Below are positions 57,522 through 64,000 of a stretch of DNA of 64,000 nt, piece by piece. The position numbers and the translations under genes are program-made. This DNA comes from Sphingomonadaceae bacterium (lineage in GTDB: Bacteria; Pseudomonadota; Alphaproteobacteria; Sphingomonadales; Sphingomonadaceae). Every line of letters starts with the position of its first letter. The first letter of the stretch is position 1. The notes under the pieces were generated by a model. The model saw only the letters and a program-made list of their open reading frames with translations. It searched no databases and was not told the DNA's origin. The stretch covers positions 62,001 to 126,000 of the forward strand of contig CANJUF010000004.1 of assembly GCA_947477745.1 (NCBI GenBank). Reading direction: 5' to 3'.

Positions 57522-60500
57522 TCAATGAAAATCGCGTGACCTGGGGATGATCCTGACGCCGCGCGGATGACGCTGGACGAAGCCGCATTCGCGGTTTCCC
57601 GGCGGCGGCGGCTCCCAGGCTTCGGCCTTGCCGCCGCCGCTTCCCGGCAAGGGCGAATTGACATGATCGGCGCGCGCCAGCGGTGCGCTCAGCAGGTCGT
57701 CCGACAGCAGACCGAGCTGCGCAGTGGCATCGTGAAGATGCGCGGCGATGACGTGGATCACCTCGTCGTCGTATTCGACGCGGCCCCGGATCTCGAGCAG
57801 CCGCGCCCCCATCACCGTGCGGCGGTGCTTCTCCATCATGTCGGGCCACACGACAATGTTGGCGACCCCGGTCTCGTCCTCGACGGTGATGAAGCACACG
57901 CCCTTGGCGCTGCCGGGCCGCTGGCGGATCAGCACCACGCCCGCGACATGGACCATCGAGCGGAACTTGCGGGCCCGCAGGTCTGAAGCGCGCACGAAAC
58001 CACGCTCGGCAAGGCTGGCGCGCAGGAAAGCCACGGGATGCGCCTTCAGCGACAGACGCTGGGTCTGGTAATCGGCGACGACTTCCTCGCTGAGCGGCAT
58101 CATGGGAAGCCGGGTGGCATGGCGCTCCGTTCCTTCGTCGCGCGCATCTGCGGCGGCGAACAGCGGCAGGTCGGGCGCGGCGATCAGGCTGCGCGCCTCC
58201 CACAGCGCCTGGCGGCGCGGGAGCCCTATTGAGGAAAACGCATCGGCGCTGGCCAGCCGCTCGATCATGGCGGGCGAGAGCCCGGCGCGCTGCTTCAGCG
58301 CGGCCAGATCGGCGAAGGCCCCGCCCTGCTCGCGCGCGGCAACCAGCTTTGCCGCCGCCGCTTCGGGAAAGCCGTCGATCTGCCGAAGGCCGAGGCGCAG
58401 GGCTATCCGCGAGTCCCTGCGGAGGCAGGGACTTAGCGCTTCAACGCATCCCGTCTGCGACACGAGATCCCTGCCTTCGCAGGGATTCGCCCCCTCCAGC
58501 GTACAATCCCACACGGAATGGTTTACATCCACAGGCAACACCGGCACGCCATGCTCGCGGGCGTCGCGCACGATCTGCGCGGGCGCATAGAAGCCCATCG
58601 GCTGTGAATTGAGCAAGCCGCAGGCGAAGGCAGCAGGGAAATGGCACTTCAGCCAGCTAGACACATATACCAGGTGGGCAAAGCTCGCCGCGTGGCTTTC
58701 GGGAAAGCCGTATTCGCCGAAACCCTTGATCTGGTTGAAGCAGCGCTCGGCAAAATCGGGATCATAGCCGCGCGCGATCATCCGTCCGACCATCATGTCC
58801 TGCAGTTCATCGACCATGCCGCGCGAACGGAACGTCGCCATCGCCTTGCGCAGCCGGTTGGCCTCGGCGCCGGAGAATTTCGCCGCGTCGAGCGCGATCT
58901 TCATCGCCTGCTCCTGGAAGATCGGCACGCCCAACGTGCGCCCCAGGATGCTCGACAATTCGTCGGGTGGGCCATGCTCGGGCGCGGGCGCGGGAATCTC
59001 CACCGGTTCGGCCCCGCGCCGCCGCTTGAGATAGGGATGCACCATGTCGCCCTGGATCGGGCCGGGCCGCACGATCGCCACCTGGATGACAAGGTCGTAG
59101 AACTCGCGCGGCCGCAGGCGCGGCAGCATGTTCATCTGCGCGCGGCTCTCCACCTGGAACACGCCCAGCGAATCGCCCTTGCGCAGCATCGCATAGGTCT
59201 CCGGGTCTTCGCGCGGCACGGTAGCGAGCGTGAGATCGCGGGCATGGTGCGCGCCCAGAAGATCGAGGCATTTCCTGATGCAGGTGAGCATGCCAAGTGC
59301 GAGAATATCGATCTTGAGGATGCCCAGCGCATCGATGTCGTCCTTGTCCCACTCGATAAAGCTGCGTTCCGGCATGGCGCCGTTGCCGATCGGCACGGTC
59401 TCGACCAGTGGTCCTTCGGTGAGGATGAAGCCGCCGACATGCTGCGAGAGATGACGCGGCATACCGATCATTTGTGCGGTCAGTTTGAGAACCCGCGTCA
59501 GGTGCGGGTCGGACAGGTCCATGCCGGTTTCGGCGGCATGTTTCTCGCTCACTTCGTTGCCGTGGCTACCCCACACTGTGCGTGCCAGTGCGCCGGTCAC
59601 GTCTTCGCTGAGGCCCATCGCCTTGCCCACTTCGCGGATCGCCATCCGCGGGCGGTAGTGGATCACGGTGGCGCACAGCCCCGCGCGCTGGCGGCCGTAC
59701 TTGGCATAGATGTACTGGATCACCTCCTCGCGCCGCTCGTGCTCGAAATCGACGTCGATGTCGGGCGGCTCGTTGCGGTCCTCGGAGATGAAACGATCGA
59801 ACAGCAAGGCATGCCGGGCTGGATCGACCGCGGTGATGCCAAGGCAATAGCACACCGCCGAATTGGCCGCAGAGCCCCTGCCCTGGCACAGGATCGGCGG
59901 ATCCTGCGCGCGGGCGAAATCGACGATGTCCTTGATGGTGAGGAAATAGCGGGCGAGCCTGAGCTTTTCGATCAGCACCAGTTCGCGGTGAAGCACGTCG
60001 CGCACGGTGTCGGGCAAACCTTCGGGATAGCGCCATTGCGCTCCCTGCCAGGTCAGCACCTCGAGCTGCTGCTGCGGCGTGCGGCTCTCGGGATAGCTTT
60101 CCTGCGGATACTCGTATTGCAGCTCGTCGAGGCTGAACCTGCAGGCATCGGCCACCGCGCGCGCCGCCGACAGGGCATGCGGCCAGGGCGCGAACAGCCG
60201 CGCCATTTCCTGAGGTGACTTCAGATGCCGCTCGGCATTGGCTTCGAGCAGCAGACCGGCGGAGGCCACGGTGGTCTTGTGGCGGATCGCGGTCATGACG
60301 TCCTGCAGCGGGCGGCGTTCGGGCGCGTGGTAAAGCACGTCGTTGGTGGCATGGATCGACATGCCGTTTTGCCGCGCCATGGCGTCAAGCGCCTCGATCC
60401 GGGCGATGTCGTCGCCGCGATAGAGATAAGAGGCGGCGATGTGCTTGAGGGTGGGAAGCCGGGCTGCGAGGTGGGGGAGGATGGTTTCGAGGTGGGCGCT

Positions 60501-61154
60501 CAGCACTCTCCCCTCCCGCTTGCGGGAGGGGTCGGGGGTGGGCTTGGCAAGCAATGGCACGCCTCGCCCACCCCGCTGCGACTGCGCGTCCGGTTGCTCG
60601 GACGCGAGTCTCGCTGCCCCTCCCGCACGCGGGAGGGGAATCACGTTGTCCTCTACGACAATGGTGAATTCCGCTGCCAGATCGCGCGGGGGAACGAGGA
60701 TCAGCTGCAAACCTTCGGAATGCTGCGCGAGCATCGCCAGCGAAATCTCGCATATACCCTTGTCCTGCCATTCGCCGCCCGGCCGCTGCATCCGCCCTGC
60801 CGAGATCAGCCGGCAAAGGCGGCCATAGGCCGCGCGGTCGATGGGATAGGCAAGGAACACCAGCCCCTCGATGGTTTCGATCCGGCAACCGATCACCGGC
60901 CGCAGTTTCAGGGTCTTCGCCTCGGTGTGCAGGCGCACCACCCCCGCCATCGAATTGGCGTCGGCAATCCCCAGCGCATCGTAGCCCAGCGCCCGCGCGG
61001 TCAAGGCCAGATCGACCGCGTCGGACGCGCCGCGCAGGAAAGTGAAGCAGCTCGCCAGCCCGAGCTCGACGAACGGCGCGCGCGGCGGCGCACCGATCGT
61101 ATCGGGGTCTATGTCGATCCGGCGCTTGTCGGGCGTGAGCGGCGCTTCCGGCAC
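57522..61154 (-). CDS. dnaE2: Error-prone DNA polymerase DnaE2 (with two in-frame repeat insertions)
   Basis: 1210 residues from GTG 61154, with GGAGG a few bases upstream and just after the UdgX stop. The PHP domain begins FVELGLASCFTFLRGAS; the polymerase active site includes PPDIDVDFEHERREEVIQYIY. DnaE2 copies damaged DNA in SOS mutagenesis. About 85 residues are extra relative to normal: a 56-residue block at about 60498-60665 and a 29-residue block at about 58404-58490, both made of palindromic repeats. Usual partners ImuA/ImuB are absent here. Confidence 0.93.
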   Translation of the reverse strand: MPEAPLTPDKRRIDIDPDTIGAPPRAPFVELGLASCFTFLRGASDAVDLALTARALGYDALGIADANSMAGVVRLHTEAKTLKLRPVIGCRIETIEGLVFLAYPIDRAAYGRLCRLISAGRMQRPGGEWQDKGICEISLAMLAQHSEGLQLILVPPRDLAAEFTIVVEDNVIPLPRAGGAARLASEQPDAQSQRGGRGVPLLAKPTPDPSRKREGRVLSAHLETILPHLAARLPTLKHIAASYLYRGDDIARIEALDAMARQNGMSIHATNDVLYHAPERRPLQDVMTAIRHKTTVASAGLLLEANAERHLKSPQEMARLFAPWPHALSAARAVADACRFSLDELQYEYPQESYPESRTPQQQLEVLTWQGAQWRYPEGLPDTVRDVLHRELVLIEKLRLARYFLTIKDIVDFARAQDPPILCQGRGSAANSAVCYCLGITAVDPARHALLFDRFISEDRNEPPDIDVDFEHERREEVIQYIYAKYGRQRAGLCATVIHYRPRMAIREVGKAMGLSEDVTGALARTVWGSHGNEVSEKHAAETGMDLSDPHLTRVLKLTAQMIGMPRHLSQHVGGFILTEGPLVETVPIGNGAMPERSFIEWDKDDIDALGILKIDILALGMLTCIRKCLDLLGAHHARDLTLATVPREDPETYAMLRKGDSLGVFQVESRAQMNMLPRLRPREFYDLVIQVAIVRPGPIQGDMVHPYLKRRRGAEPVEIPAPAPEHGPPDELSSILGRTLGVPIFQEQAMKIALDAAKFSGAEANRLRKAMATFRSRGMVDELQDMMVGRMIARGYDPDFAERCFNQIKGFGEYGFPESHAASFAHLVYVSSWLKCHFPAAFACGLLNSQPMGFYAPAQIVRDAREHGVPVLPVDVNHSVWDCTLEGANPCEGRDLVSQTGCVEALSPCLRRDSRIALRLGLRQIDGFPEAAAAKLVAAREQGGAFADLAALKQRAGLSPAMIERLASADAFSSIGLPRRQALWEARSLIAAPDLPLFAAADARDEGTERHATRLPMMPLSEEVVADYQTQRLSLKAHPVAFLRASLAERGFVRASDLRARKFRSMVHVAGVVLIRQRPGSAKGVCFITVEDETGVANIVVWPDMMEKHRRTVMGARLLEIRGRVEYDDEVIHVIAAHLHDATAQLGLLSDDLLSAPLARADHVNSPLPGSGGGKAEAWEPPPPGNRECGFVQRHPRGVRIIPRSRDFH
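58404..58490. repeat. Palindromic repeat element inside dnaE2 (family B, 87 bases)
   Basis: Two hairpins with the same core lie 33 bases apart: AGTCCCTGC/GCAGGGACT (58412-58433) and ATCCCTGC/GCAGGGAT (58467-58486). In the dnaE2 frame the 87 bases add 29 residues between TLEG and ALRLGLRQIDG, which are normally close. The frame stays open, so the insertion is in register. No T-run. Confidence 0.8.
60498..60665. repeat. Palindromic repeat element inside dnaE2 (family A, 168 bases)
   Basis: A 22-base palindrome, CCCCTCCCGC-NN-GCGGGAGGGG, occurs twice (60510-60531 and 60617-60638). Between them GGGGTGGGC (60535-60543) pairs with GCCCACCCC (60566-60574) and GCGTCC with GGACGC. The 168 bases add 56 codons to dnaE2 between AEF and AHLETILP. 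The palindrome is a recurring intergenic repeat in sphingomonads as I recall; here it is inside a gene. Confidence 0.8.
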
Positions 61155-61155
61155 G

Positions 61156-62622
61156 TCATCCCTCCAGCTCCGCGAGCCGCTCCGCCACTGCGGCCAGATC
61201 GGCGTCGAACAGGCGTTCCTGCATCTCGCGCGCCTCGCCATCGAGCCGCAGCAGATAGGACGGATGCGCGGTCACCCACAGTTCGCTGCCATCGTCGAGC
61301 CGGTGCGGCTGGCCGCGCGCCTTCGAGATGCTGACCGTCTTGCCCAGCATGCCGCGCGCCGCGCTTGCGCCCATGGCCAGCACCAGCCGGGGCTTCACCG
61401 CGGCGCGTTCGCTTTCCAGCCACCAGCGGCAAGTGTCGATCTCCTTGGCGGCGGGCGACTGGTGCAGCCGCCGCTTGCCGCGCCCTTGAACTACTTTGGG
61501 CACGAACTTGAAATGCTTGACCGCGTTGGTGACATAGGCCCGGTCACGCGCGATCCCGGCGCGTTCGAGATGCACGTCGAGCAAATGCCCCGCCGGACCG
61601 ACGAACGGCCGTCCGGACAGGTCTTCCTGATCGCCCGGCTGCTCGCCGACGATCATCAGGGCGGCATGAAGCGGACCCTCGCCGGGCACCGCGCGATTGT
61701 CGAGCAGGCCGATCGGGCAGCGGCGGCAGCCGTCAATCGCCGCCGCAACTTCTTCCAGCGTACCGGGCCGTTCGCCATCCTCCATGCCGCCGCGCTCCAC
61801 CATGCTCGCCTCGCGGGCCTGCGCACCCGCAACCAGTTGCGGGATCAGCGCGGCCTCGGGCATGTTCTTCCAGTATTTCCGGGGCATTTCCTTGAGCATC
61901 GCGCCGATCTTCAAACGCGCCGGATTGAAGATCGATGCATAGTAGGTGCGCCACAGATCTTCGGCAGGATCGCCCGTCGGCGCATCCTCGCGCCGGGCCG
62001 GCGGGCCTTCGGCAAGGCTCTCACCGTCCCAGTGCAGCGAGCCTTGGGGGGTGAGGATCGACCATTTCATGTTGGCGAAACGCCGCACGAAAAACGCCGC
62101 GTTGGCGCGCAGAATGTGATGCTCCGGCTCGAACCAGGCGACGTAATGCTCGCCCGCCTGACCATCCTCGCCCGTATATTCGACGCGGCGGAAGCGCACG
62201 AAGGCATGCATCTTGTGGCTGTCGCGCCGCACAGTGCGGTCAAGCTCTTCAAGGCGGCGCACATCCGGATCGGCGCGGTCCTCGAGCAGTCGGGACTGCG
62301 ATTGCAGCCGCCACAGCAGCCGGTACAGCAGCGCGAACCGCCCGGGATCGCGGTGCAGCGCCGCATTTTGCGCCAGCTTGAGGAACGCCCGGCTGGCCCT
62401 TACCGGGCGTGGCTGGGCGCCGGGCACCGGCAAGCGCTTTTCACGCCGTCCGAATTCACCCGCGCCGAACAGATCGCCGGTCGCGCCCGGCTCGATCCAG
62501 ACCACGCGGTCTGGCGGCACGTCGCACTGGACCAGCGCCCGCGCCCGCTCACGCCAGAAATCGAAGTCGTCTGGCGCAGGCAGGTGCACGGCATAGAAGC
62601 TGCGCGGGGCAATATCCTGCAT
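61156..62622 (-). CDS. DUF4130 (TIGR03915)-UdgX fusion, uracil-DNA-binding protein
   Basis: 488 residues from ATG 62622 (GTG 62631 possible). The N-terminal ~270 residues form the TIGR03915/DUF4130 domain that pairs with the radical SAM protein upstream. The C-terminal half is a UdgX-type uracil-DNA glycosylase fold: CRRCPIG, GEQPGDQEDLSGRPFVGPAG and the linker-loop KRRLHQSP whose His (about 387) is the crosslinking residue in UdgX; canonical is KRRIH. UdgX binds uracil in DNA covalently. Ends one base before dnaE2. Confidence 0.9.
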   Translation of the reverse strand: MQDIAPRSFYAVHLPAPDDFDFWRERARALVQCDVPPDRVVWIEPGATGDLFGAGEFGRREKRLPVPGAQPRPVRASRAFLKLAQNAALHRDPGRFALLYRLLWRLQSQSRLLEDRADPDVRRLEELDRTVRRDSHKMHAFVRFRRVEYTGEDGQAGEHYVAWFEPEHHILRANAAFFVRRFANMKWSILTPQGSLHWDGESLAEGPPARREDAPTGDPAEDLWRTYYASIFNPARLKIGAMLKEMPRKYWKNMPEAALIPQLVAGAQAREASMVERGGMEDGERPGTLEEVAAAIDGCRRCPIGLLDNRAVPGEGPLHAALMIVGEQPGDQEDLSGRPFVGPAGHLLDVHLERAGIARDRAYVTNAVKHFKFVPKVVQGRGKRRLHQSPAAKEIDTCRWWLESERAAVKPRLVLAMGASAARGMLGKTVSISKARGQPHRLDDGSELWVTAHPSYLLRLDGEAREMQERLFDADLAAVAERLAELEG

Positions 62623-62652
62623 CGCGGTCACGCCGCGATGCCCTGCCGGCCA

Positions 62653-63198: not shown

Positions 63199-64000
63199 TC
63201 AGCCAAACAATTCGAGCTGCTCGCGCCTAGGCACGACCAGGCTTTTGAGATCGGCCCGGTCGGTCAGCATGGTAGGCCGCCAGTCGGCCGTGACGATGAA
63301 CGGGCGGATCTTCACCAGCGAAACCGTCAGCCGGGCAATGTCATCGAGCCGCAGGGTGCGGTGACGACGCGCCAGCAGGATGTTCTTCACCGCCCGCGTG
63401 CCCAGCCCCGGCACGCGCAGCAGCATCTCGCGCGGGGCGCGGTTGAGATCGACCGGGAAGCTCTCCCGGAACTTGAGCGCCCAGGCGAGCTTGGGGTCCA
63501 TGTCGAGCGGAAGCATGCCGTCCGCCCCGGCCGCCTGCTGCACTTCGTCCGCCGAGAAACCGTAAAACCGCATCAGCCAATCCGACTGATACAGCCGGTG
63601 CTCGCGCATCAGCGGCGGGCGCTTGAGCGGCAACACCGCGCTGGCGTCGGGGATCGGGCTGAACGCCGAATAATAGACCCGGCGCAGGCCGAACCGGCCG
63701 TAAAGCGTGCTGGCCTTGCCGATGATCTGATTATCGCTGGCACTGTCCGCGCCGACGATCATCTGCGTCGACTGGCCCGCAGGTGCAAAGCCCGGGGCAT
63801 GGCGAAACCGCTTCTTCGCGTCCTTCGCCTCGGCAATCGCAAGCTTCATGCCGCCCATCGCGCCTTCGATGGTGCCGGCATTCTTGTCGGGGGCGAGCCG
63901 GGCCAGTCCCGCTTCGGTCGGCAGTTCGACGTTGATCGAAATGCGGTCGGCATAAAGGCCGGCGCGGTGGATGATTTCGGGATCCGCCTCGGGGATGGTC
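63199..64000 (-). CDS. Putative DNA modification/repair radical SAM protein (TIGR03916), C-terminal part
   Basis: The frame is open to the window edge. GLYADRISINVELPTEAG leads into MIVGADSASDNQIIGKAS and YYSAFSPIPDA, typical of the TIGR03916 family, with a helix-hairpin-helix motif RVPGLGTRAVKNILLARRHR at the end. The radical SAM CxxxCxxC cluster should lie upstream outside the window. It partners the DUF4130 protein. Confidence 0.88.
   Translation of the reverse strand, partial: TIPEADPEIIHRAGLYADRISINVELPTEAGLARLAPDKNAGTIEGAMGGMKLAIAEAKDAKKRFRHAPGFAPAGQSTQMIVGADSASDNQIIGKASTLYGRFGLRRVYYSAFSPIPDASAVLPLKRPPLMREHRLYQSDWLMRFYGFSADEVQQAAGADGMLPLDMDPKLAWALKFRESFPVDLNRAPREMLLRVPGLGTRAVKNILLARRHRTLRLDDIARLTVSLVKIRPFIVTADWRPTMLTDRADLKSLVVPRREQLELFG

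Follow-up and report, generated by a model that had tools for sequence, protein, structure and literature searches.

A dispersed palindromic element in frame within dnaE2 of a sphingomonad, and recurrent palindromic inserts at two loops of the polymerase

The window analysed here, a 64,000-nucleotide stretch of a Sphingomonadaceae genome (GenBank assembly GCA_947477745.1, contig CANJUF010000004.1), carries a palindromic block inside dnaE2, the gene for an error-prone DNA polymerase. The block is very probably a copy of a dispersed palindromic element that resembles REPINs (repetitive extragenic palindromic (REP) doublets forming hairpins) and bacterial interspersed mosaic elements (BIMEs), behaves like the Rickettsia palindromic elements (RPEs) and is tolerated in a beta-hairpin loop. 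BIMEs are paired REPs. In-frame palindromic insertion is a known kind of event; its density at the loops of DnaE2 is unusual, as unrelated insert families have collected at two loops of this one enzyme in 43 of the 88 related species examined, about half of them. This two-loop pattern and an element family with a covarying unit, B, are what the analysis adds to prior work. Labels in brackets denote individual genomes, contigs and loci (G000, the genome of the window; L046, the window's own dnaE2).

The element (Table 1) is bounded by two terminal repeats, CCCCTCCCGCNNGCGGGAGGGG, at 60510-60531 and 60617-60638; with up to three mismatches allowed, these are the only two matches in the window, against 0.03 expected. 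An earlier note on this DNA, made from the letters alone, located both repeats correctly and called them perfect 22-base palindromes. Each has the form CCCCTCCCGC-NN-GCGGGAGGGG, in which the 10-bp arms are perfect and the 2-nt centre (TT or AC) is not palindromic. The further inverted repeats that the note saw between them are present, as a pair at 60535-60548 and 60561-60574 and an inner hairpin at about 60585-60606. As single-stranded DNA, positions 60500-60650 have a predicted folding energy of −60.5 kcal/mol (z = −8.5, 200 shuffles), with the end repeats paired to each other and two inner arms completing a clover.

The reading frame is open through the block, as the earlier note had it, but the proposed 168 bp and roughly 56 extra residues shrink to 129 bp and 43 codons. 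The element opens on a codon boundary and encodes PLPRAGGAARLASEQPDAQSQRGGRGVPLLAKPTPDPSRKREG. The stretch from VPPRDL to ASY measures 90 amino acids here and mostly 55-61 in relatives that lack an insert, a net gain of about 29-35 residues. Element boundaries were taken from the repeat rather than from an empty allele, because the sister gene (L131) carries another insert. The block is probably translated as part of DnaE2, for which predicted tryptic peptides include DLAAEFTIVVEDNVIPLPR and GVPLLAKPTPDPSR, and its effect on the enzyme may be near neutral.

The element is repeated across its own genome, a draft of 3,026,428 bases in 63 contigs that is 98.69% complete. The earlier note had asked whether the palindrome is unique there; the genome holds 22 such palindromes and a reversed control none. 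A 150-nt element query returns 57 blastn pieces. Unit A consists of a hairpin, three bases (five in some copies) and GGGGTGG; unit B is longer, with a second hairpin between GCTGCGACT and AGTCTCGC. The units form inverted pairs, either A-A or A-B; solitary units and units with a hairpin in common are also seen. Scored over the whole unit B structure, 18 distinct units give 53 double-changed cells, compared with 22.1 in shuffles, and 86.4% of cells are paired (74.0% in shuffles, 40-57% in slid versions; 80.1% for the inner helix alone), a score to be read knowing that the structure was written from the very sequences on which it was scored. These 18 come from 20 extracted units, one duplicate and L042 being left out and L041 shortened by one base.

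We called genes around all 25 element loci that the palindrome and blastn searches gave in this genome, scoring codon usage after training on the window. Three lie in frame inside genes (ileS, dnaE2 and uup), one runs over the 3′ end of a gene, and 21 are outside called genes, four of these (L161-L164) with one flank partly uncalled. Twelve of the 21 extragenic copies sit 2-13 nt from a called stop codon. Where genes were called on both sides (n = 19), the flanking pair is convergent in 9 cases, co-directional in 10 and divergent in none. Such a mixture of intergenic and intragenic stem-loops fits the RPE-like behaviour that the earlier note proposed. Across the genus group, 86 of 194 genomes contain exact unit A, the window's own in 19 copies. 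Twelve plasmid records match the element, the best being a Sphingopyxis indica plasmid (77% identity over 88% of the query) and most others short; phage records gave no match. A search of six loci against Rfam (E up to 1) gave three weak matches, far below the gathering score and none over the site-1 element.

To place the block among its relatives we assembled 88 DnaE2 genes of the close clade, the window's own included; some are truncated where a contig or locus ends, or interrupted by a frame break (among them L061, L131, L154, L157, L158 and L159). Three relatives (G012, G010 and G018; 98, 99 and 92% complete) return only matches of DnaE1 strength to a DnaE2 query, and DnaE2 may be absent from them. 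Nucleotide families were judged by eye on 20 printed genes of the 88, and two genes (L133 and L154) were left out of state counts. By these labels the window's family occupies the same position, site 1, in 14 of 86 scored genes, including two diverged variants (L093 and L123), so the block is not conserved in most relatives. Clustering by blastn shifts the membership slightly: L123 is lost, and two genes with a different end hairpin, L127 and L128, are gained.

Carriers of the window's family are spread over far-apart clades of a DnaE2 core tree from which the insert sites were removed, on which the family's presence at site 1 requires at least 8 changes and the presence of any site-1 insert at least 17. 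At this site the sister gene (88% identical over 611 columns, on a starred branch) is filled by a palindromic insert unrelated to the window's. Neither outcome that would have refuted the earlier note, a conserved block or a palindrome unique in the genome, was borne out, and the evidence favours insertion of a dispersed palindromic element, as the note inferred, over divergence.

The window's block is one of many such inserts. Against a majority alignment, 50 of the 88 genes have internal inserts of at least 15 residues, 77 in all, at columns 192 (site 1, with one insert at 188 pooled), 871 (site 2) and 1134 (the C-terminal linker), with one near the N terminus. Together, sites 1 and 2 account for 58 of these inserts, spread over 43 genes: site 1 is filled in 28 genes and site 2 in 29, and 14 genes have both filled. 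Of the 58 inserts, 50 reach an inverted-repeat score of at least 10, as do 65 of 1,100 control fragments taken from nucleotides 900-2400 of the same genes; at a score of at least 13 the counts are 43 of 58 and 0 of 1,100. Some insert scores at least 10 in 36 of the 43 insert-bearing genes. The C-terminal linker (18 of the 77 inserts) was set aside as native, two of its inserts (L113 and the window's own, L046) scoring at least 10, and the single N-terminal insert (L060, score 10) was omitted from the two-loop count.

The inserts belong to several families. Clustering 57 insert segments by blastn gives 13 components, of 28, 15, 3 and 2 segments plus nine singletons. The largest is a family with peptides of the form SRRGAEA...LCASAPLREP and the second is the window's own; both occur at both sites. 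Some insert peptides look nested by eye (for example, L053 and L059). Among 80 DnaE2 proteins of named genomes, site-2 segments of at least 60 residues with scores of at least 15 extend beyond sphingomonads to Caulobacteraceae (L300 and L347) and Reyranella (L308).

The window's dnaE2 itself has an insert at site 2. The product matches the NCBIfam model for error-prone DNA polymerase, NF004225 (1,365 bits, cut-off 939); the earlier note did not list this second palindromic insert. It comprises two REP-like hairpins, each with an 8-9-bp stem and a 4-nt loop, in the form ATCCCTGC-4 nt-GCAGGGAT, the second unit being inverted. The four bases outside the 8-bp stem are GCGA; there is no terminal CGTC tag, nor TGTC or CCTC. 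With up to one mismatch allowed, the stem ATCCCTGC..GCAGGGAT has no second match in the genome, which seemed at first to speak against a repeat; the 96-nt region, however, returned 31 blastn pieces at E up to 1, its own included, with pairs at C1:48570, C11:37169 and C7:33862. Because blastn finds these related copies, we take the site-2 insert to belong to a diverged REP family.

In a structure model of residues 47-1239, used locally only given its weakness (mean predicted local distance difference test (pLDDT) score 53.7, predicted template modelling score 0.38), both inserts lack secondary structure (block pLDDT 31-48) and each lies between two better-scored beta strands. The model thus puts both inserts at beta-hairpin turns, with site 1 shortly after the PHP match (residues 64-182) and site 2 within the HHH_6 match (898-1012), both from Pfam. 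Ratios of nonsynonymous to synonymous substitution in the DnaE2 core are 0.041-0.12 (15 pairs, 11 of them including a carrier), and insert-bearing dnaE2 genes remain under purifying selection. The in-frame element apparently leaves the polymerase gene of the window intact.

Two other proteins served as controls. The DnaE1 set comprised 70 genes, 30 best matches and 40 chosen by hand from the genomes of the DnaE2 set; the isoleucyl-tRNA synthetase (IleS) set comprised the 30 best-scoring matches, a restriction that biases it against inserts. Exact inverted repeats of at least 13 nt within 220 nt were found in 2 of 70 DnaE1, 34 of 88 DnaE2 and 5 of 30 IleS genes. These counts are lower bounds, and the window's own dnaE2, whose two repeats have different centres, escapes the screen for that reason. 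DnaE2 is struck far more often than DnaE1. Of 27 DnaE1 inserts, 26 are one insert of 28-31 amino acids at core column 318, present in 26 of the 70 genes (L231-L270), which we read as a clade feature marking part of the genus. Five of the 27 reach an inverted-repeat score of 10.

Inserts of at least 15 amino acids occur in 6 of 30 IleS genes, one of them scoring at least 10. The window's family is in frame at one IleS loop in its own genome and, by eye, in two others (L170 and L183), in a frame other than that used in DnaE2; other blocks occupy the same loop in L171, L175 and L198. This loop is natively long elsewhere (39-51 amino acids over the compared stretch, against 62 here, a net gain of about 11 residues over the commonest length of 51), which is why the IleS element of the window's genome is not among the six. 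Because IleS also shows it, the insertion phenomenon is not confined to DnaE2.

Several observations weigh against a dispersed element inserted in dnaE2. The family labels were set by eye, and the change counts do not separate gain from loss; the tree beneath them was built quickly and leaves 18 of its 85 inner branches open. In 7 of the 43 genes with inserts, none scores at least 10, and the window's own site-1 insert scores just 10 in the alignment-cut segment, a value that 65 of the 1,100 control fragments reach; over the whole loop it scores 20. A clean empty dnaE2 site in a very close relative was not found. At ileS, comparison of the window's genome with G012, which offers one near-empty site at 85-88% identity, reveals no target-site duplication such as a MITE would leave, and about 9-12 nt of native loop are missing. 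The mover is also elusive: Y1 tyrosine transposases of the REP-associated (RAYT) type (PF01797) have no match in the window's genome, a draft from which a gene could be missed, and across 37 genomes Y1 genes are not associated with unit-A copies (present in 4 of 12 genomes with at least five copies and in 8 of 25 with fewer).

These last results bear on whether the element is a true RAYT-driven REPIN, whose hairpins a Y1 transposase would recognize and move in trans. The architecture invites that view, as inverted hairpin units that fold into a large hairpin or clover are described for REPINs (PMC3116915; here and below we draw on parts of the sources cited), and the z-score of the DNA fold is in keeping with it. 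However, PF01797 matches appear in 19 of 61 genomes and not in the window's, copy number does not follow them, and the printed element copies, inspected by eye, have no GTAG tag beside their hairpins; we regard RAYT-driven movement as unlikely. Acquisition of the block by recombination with the dnaE2 of another carrier, with no insertion event in this lineage, would explain why other species have this family at the identical codon position. Yet neither flank of the insert has its closest relative in another carrier of the family, and the window's copy pairs B with A, unlike the other printed copies, which are A-A, degenerate or, in L093, have a different, longer left unit. Recombination is accordingly improbable, more so than transposase-driven movement.

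Whether selection maintains the inserts because they alter the activity of DnaE2, and so tune SOS mutagenesis, is a separate matter, and an idea raised for REP-tagged repair genes in the Discussion of PMC3733652. It would suit the contrast with DnaE1 and the presence of inserts at these two loops in as many as 43 of the 88 species. But insert families differ between sister species, two copies look decayed (L122 and L126, whose genomes, G210 and G207, lack exact unit A), the inserts have no secondary structure and low pLDDT in the weak model, and an essential enzyme, IleS, has the same at one loop, which points to tolerance. Tuning by selection seems to us about as doubtful as RAYT-driven movement. 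By far the least probable explanation is ordinary divergence, that is, slow expansion of a native loop with chance palindromes in GC-rich coding DNA. The site-1 loop is variable throughout the clade and some 25-30 residues longer there than in more distant aligned DnaE2 proteins, as this would have it; but the element sequence is repeated elsewhere in the genome, and no control fragment attains the inverted-repeat score of 43 of the 58 inserts.

We therefore favour insertion of a REPIN- or BIME-like element, and propose how it might proceed. The element would be dispersed and non-autonomous, made of two inverted hairpin-plus-GGGGTGGGC units, A and the longer B, and would have spread by transposition-like copying. 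Most copies in this genome are extragenic, often within a few bases of a stop codon. The occasional intragenic copy would survive only if it kept the frame, introduced no stop and fell in a loop able to accommodate additional residues. The two DnaE2 loops may act as traps, which unrelated palindromic families enter independently and in which they then decay, with the polymerase kept under purifying selection throughout this gain and decay. The distribution of unit A fits bursts of copying followed by decay. With the DnaE2 copy itself counted, genomes with the family in DnaE2 have a median of 14.5 unit-A copies and those without it 0 (n = 14 and 74; P = 0.001, by ranks), and any unit A is found in 11 of 14 carrier genomes and 31 of 74 others. 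The three carriers without exact unit A are G207 and G210, in which the DnaE2 copy looks decayed, and G214, in which it is a variant. A bolder proposal, which we consider a long shot, is that the DnaE2 loops are preferred landing sites for many unrelated families across alphaproteobacteria. Lacking their own transposase, these would be copied where the SOS polymerase works on single-stranded or stalled DNA, and the repair machinery and its parasites would thereby shape each other.

Table 1 Features of the window's dnaE2 and copies of the site-1 element inside or over other genes of the same genome
Feature	Position	Strand	Basis or remark
dnaE2, encoding the 1239-aa error-prone DNA polymerase that carries both inserts	57522..61241	minus	open reading frame and NCBIfam match
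Site-1 palindromic element, 129 bp, 43 codons, DnaE2 residues 202-244 (read on minus strand)	60510..60638		inverted repeats, genome copies
Terminal inverted repeat, unit A	60510..60531	+	10-bp arms, TT centre
GGGGTGGGC motif of unit A	60535..60543	+	pairs with 60566-60574
GCCCACCCC motif of unit B	60566..60574	+	
Inner hairpin of unit B	60585..60606		sequence variable among copies, pairing largely retained
Terminal inverted repeat, unit B	60617..60638	+	10-bp arms, AC centre
Site-2 in-frame palindromic insert, two inverted REP-like hairpins, residues ~918-945	58409..58490		related genome copies
ileS copy, in frame, ~41 codons	G000:C2:35947-36069 (L002 1501-1623)		host by TIGR00392, 796 bits, cut-off 621.4
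uup copy (ABC-F ATPase, Uup-like), short, in frame, near C-terminal part	G000:C1:152431-152517 (L034 1503-1589)		best host match NF050005 below cut-off (514.6 against 900); reading frame begins at locus edge
Copy over 3′ end of substrate-binding-protein-like gene	L168 1450-1538		adds PLPLAEGVWGG...PPPASGRREK tail

The surroundings of dnaE2 are a DNA-repair neighbourhood. Adjoining it on the minus strand are a fused TIGR03915-UdgX gene (61156-62631) and a radical SAM gene (63199-63999), the latter TIGR03916-like (301 bits, cut-off 343.5) and truncated by the window end.

If these inserts are what we propose, DnaE2 of this group would be a natural experiment in insertion tolerance, with many independent in-frame insertions at two defined loops. 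Two old questions would become open to test: by what route palindromic repeats spread when no transposase is evident, and whether repeats carried in frame are neutral or modify SOS mutagenesis. For annotation, it counsels caution, as variable blocks such as PLPLAGG...PDPSRKREG and SRRGAEA...LCASAPLREP would derive from repeats. The earlier note thought an element of this kind in such a polymerase new, which is only partly right; palindromic repeats in DnaE2 had already been reported in 2013 (PMC3733652). We found no description of the GGGGTGGGC element or of recurrent two-loop insertion in DnaE2 in a literature search that left most subscription papers and supplementary files outside its reach, and Additional file 3 of PMC3733652, a list of REP-tagged genes, may already include some cases.

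The RPEs (Ogata et al. 2000) are stem-loops of about 105-146 bp found between genes and in frame in conserved genes (PMC2229807). The window's element is likewise a stem-loop with copies in both kinds of place, but it is GC-rich, made of two REP-like units and resident in a sphingomonad-like genome; its likeness to RPEs is one of behaviour. With REPINs (PMC3116915) and BIMEs it shares two inverted hairpin units that form one larger structure with their spacer, and a dispersed, mostly extragenic distribution; it differs in lacking a detected RAYT/Y1 gene in its genome and in its long unit B with a covarying inner hairpin. The Caulobacter CcrM-associated intergenic repeats (CIR; printed CerM in PMC2229807) are also alphaproteobacterial, about 110 bp long and composed of two arms and a linker, but GANTC, conserved in CIR, is present by eye in only 3 of 20 B units of the window's family.

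The closest precedent is the survey of Di Nocera (2013; PMC3733652), which describes palindromic REP pairs near the 3′ ends of genes and in frame in DnaE2, tRNA synthetases and repair genes. In the part considered here, it places the tRNA synthetase repeats in Erythrobacter litoralis and Sphingopyxis alaskensis, does not name the species of the DnaE2 hosts, lists CGTC REP families without an associated transposase gene and weighs loop tolerance against altered mutagenesis for the tagged genes. The window's second insert resembles these CGTC REPs in its paired, inverted units with an 8-9-bp stem and a 4-nt loop, whereas the first differs from them in its 10-bp arms, its 2-nt centre and its lack of a CGTC or GTAG tag. 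The survey reports recB repeats of two Xanthomonas at approximately the same site and, for other shared genes, repeats at different sites; here, inserts recur at two loops of one enzyme.

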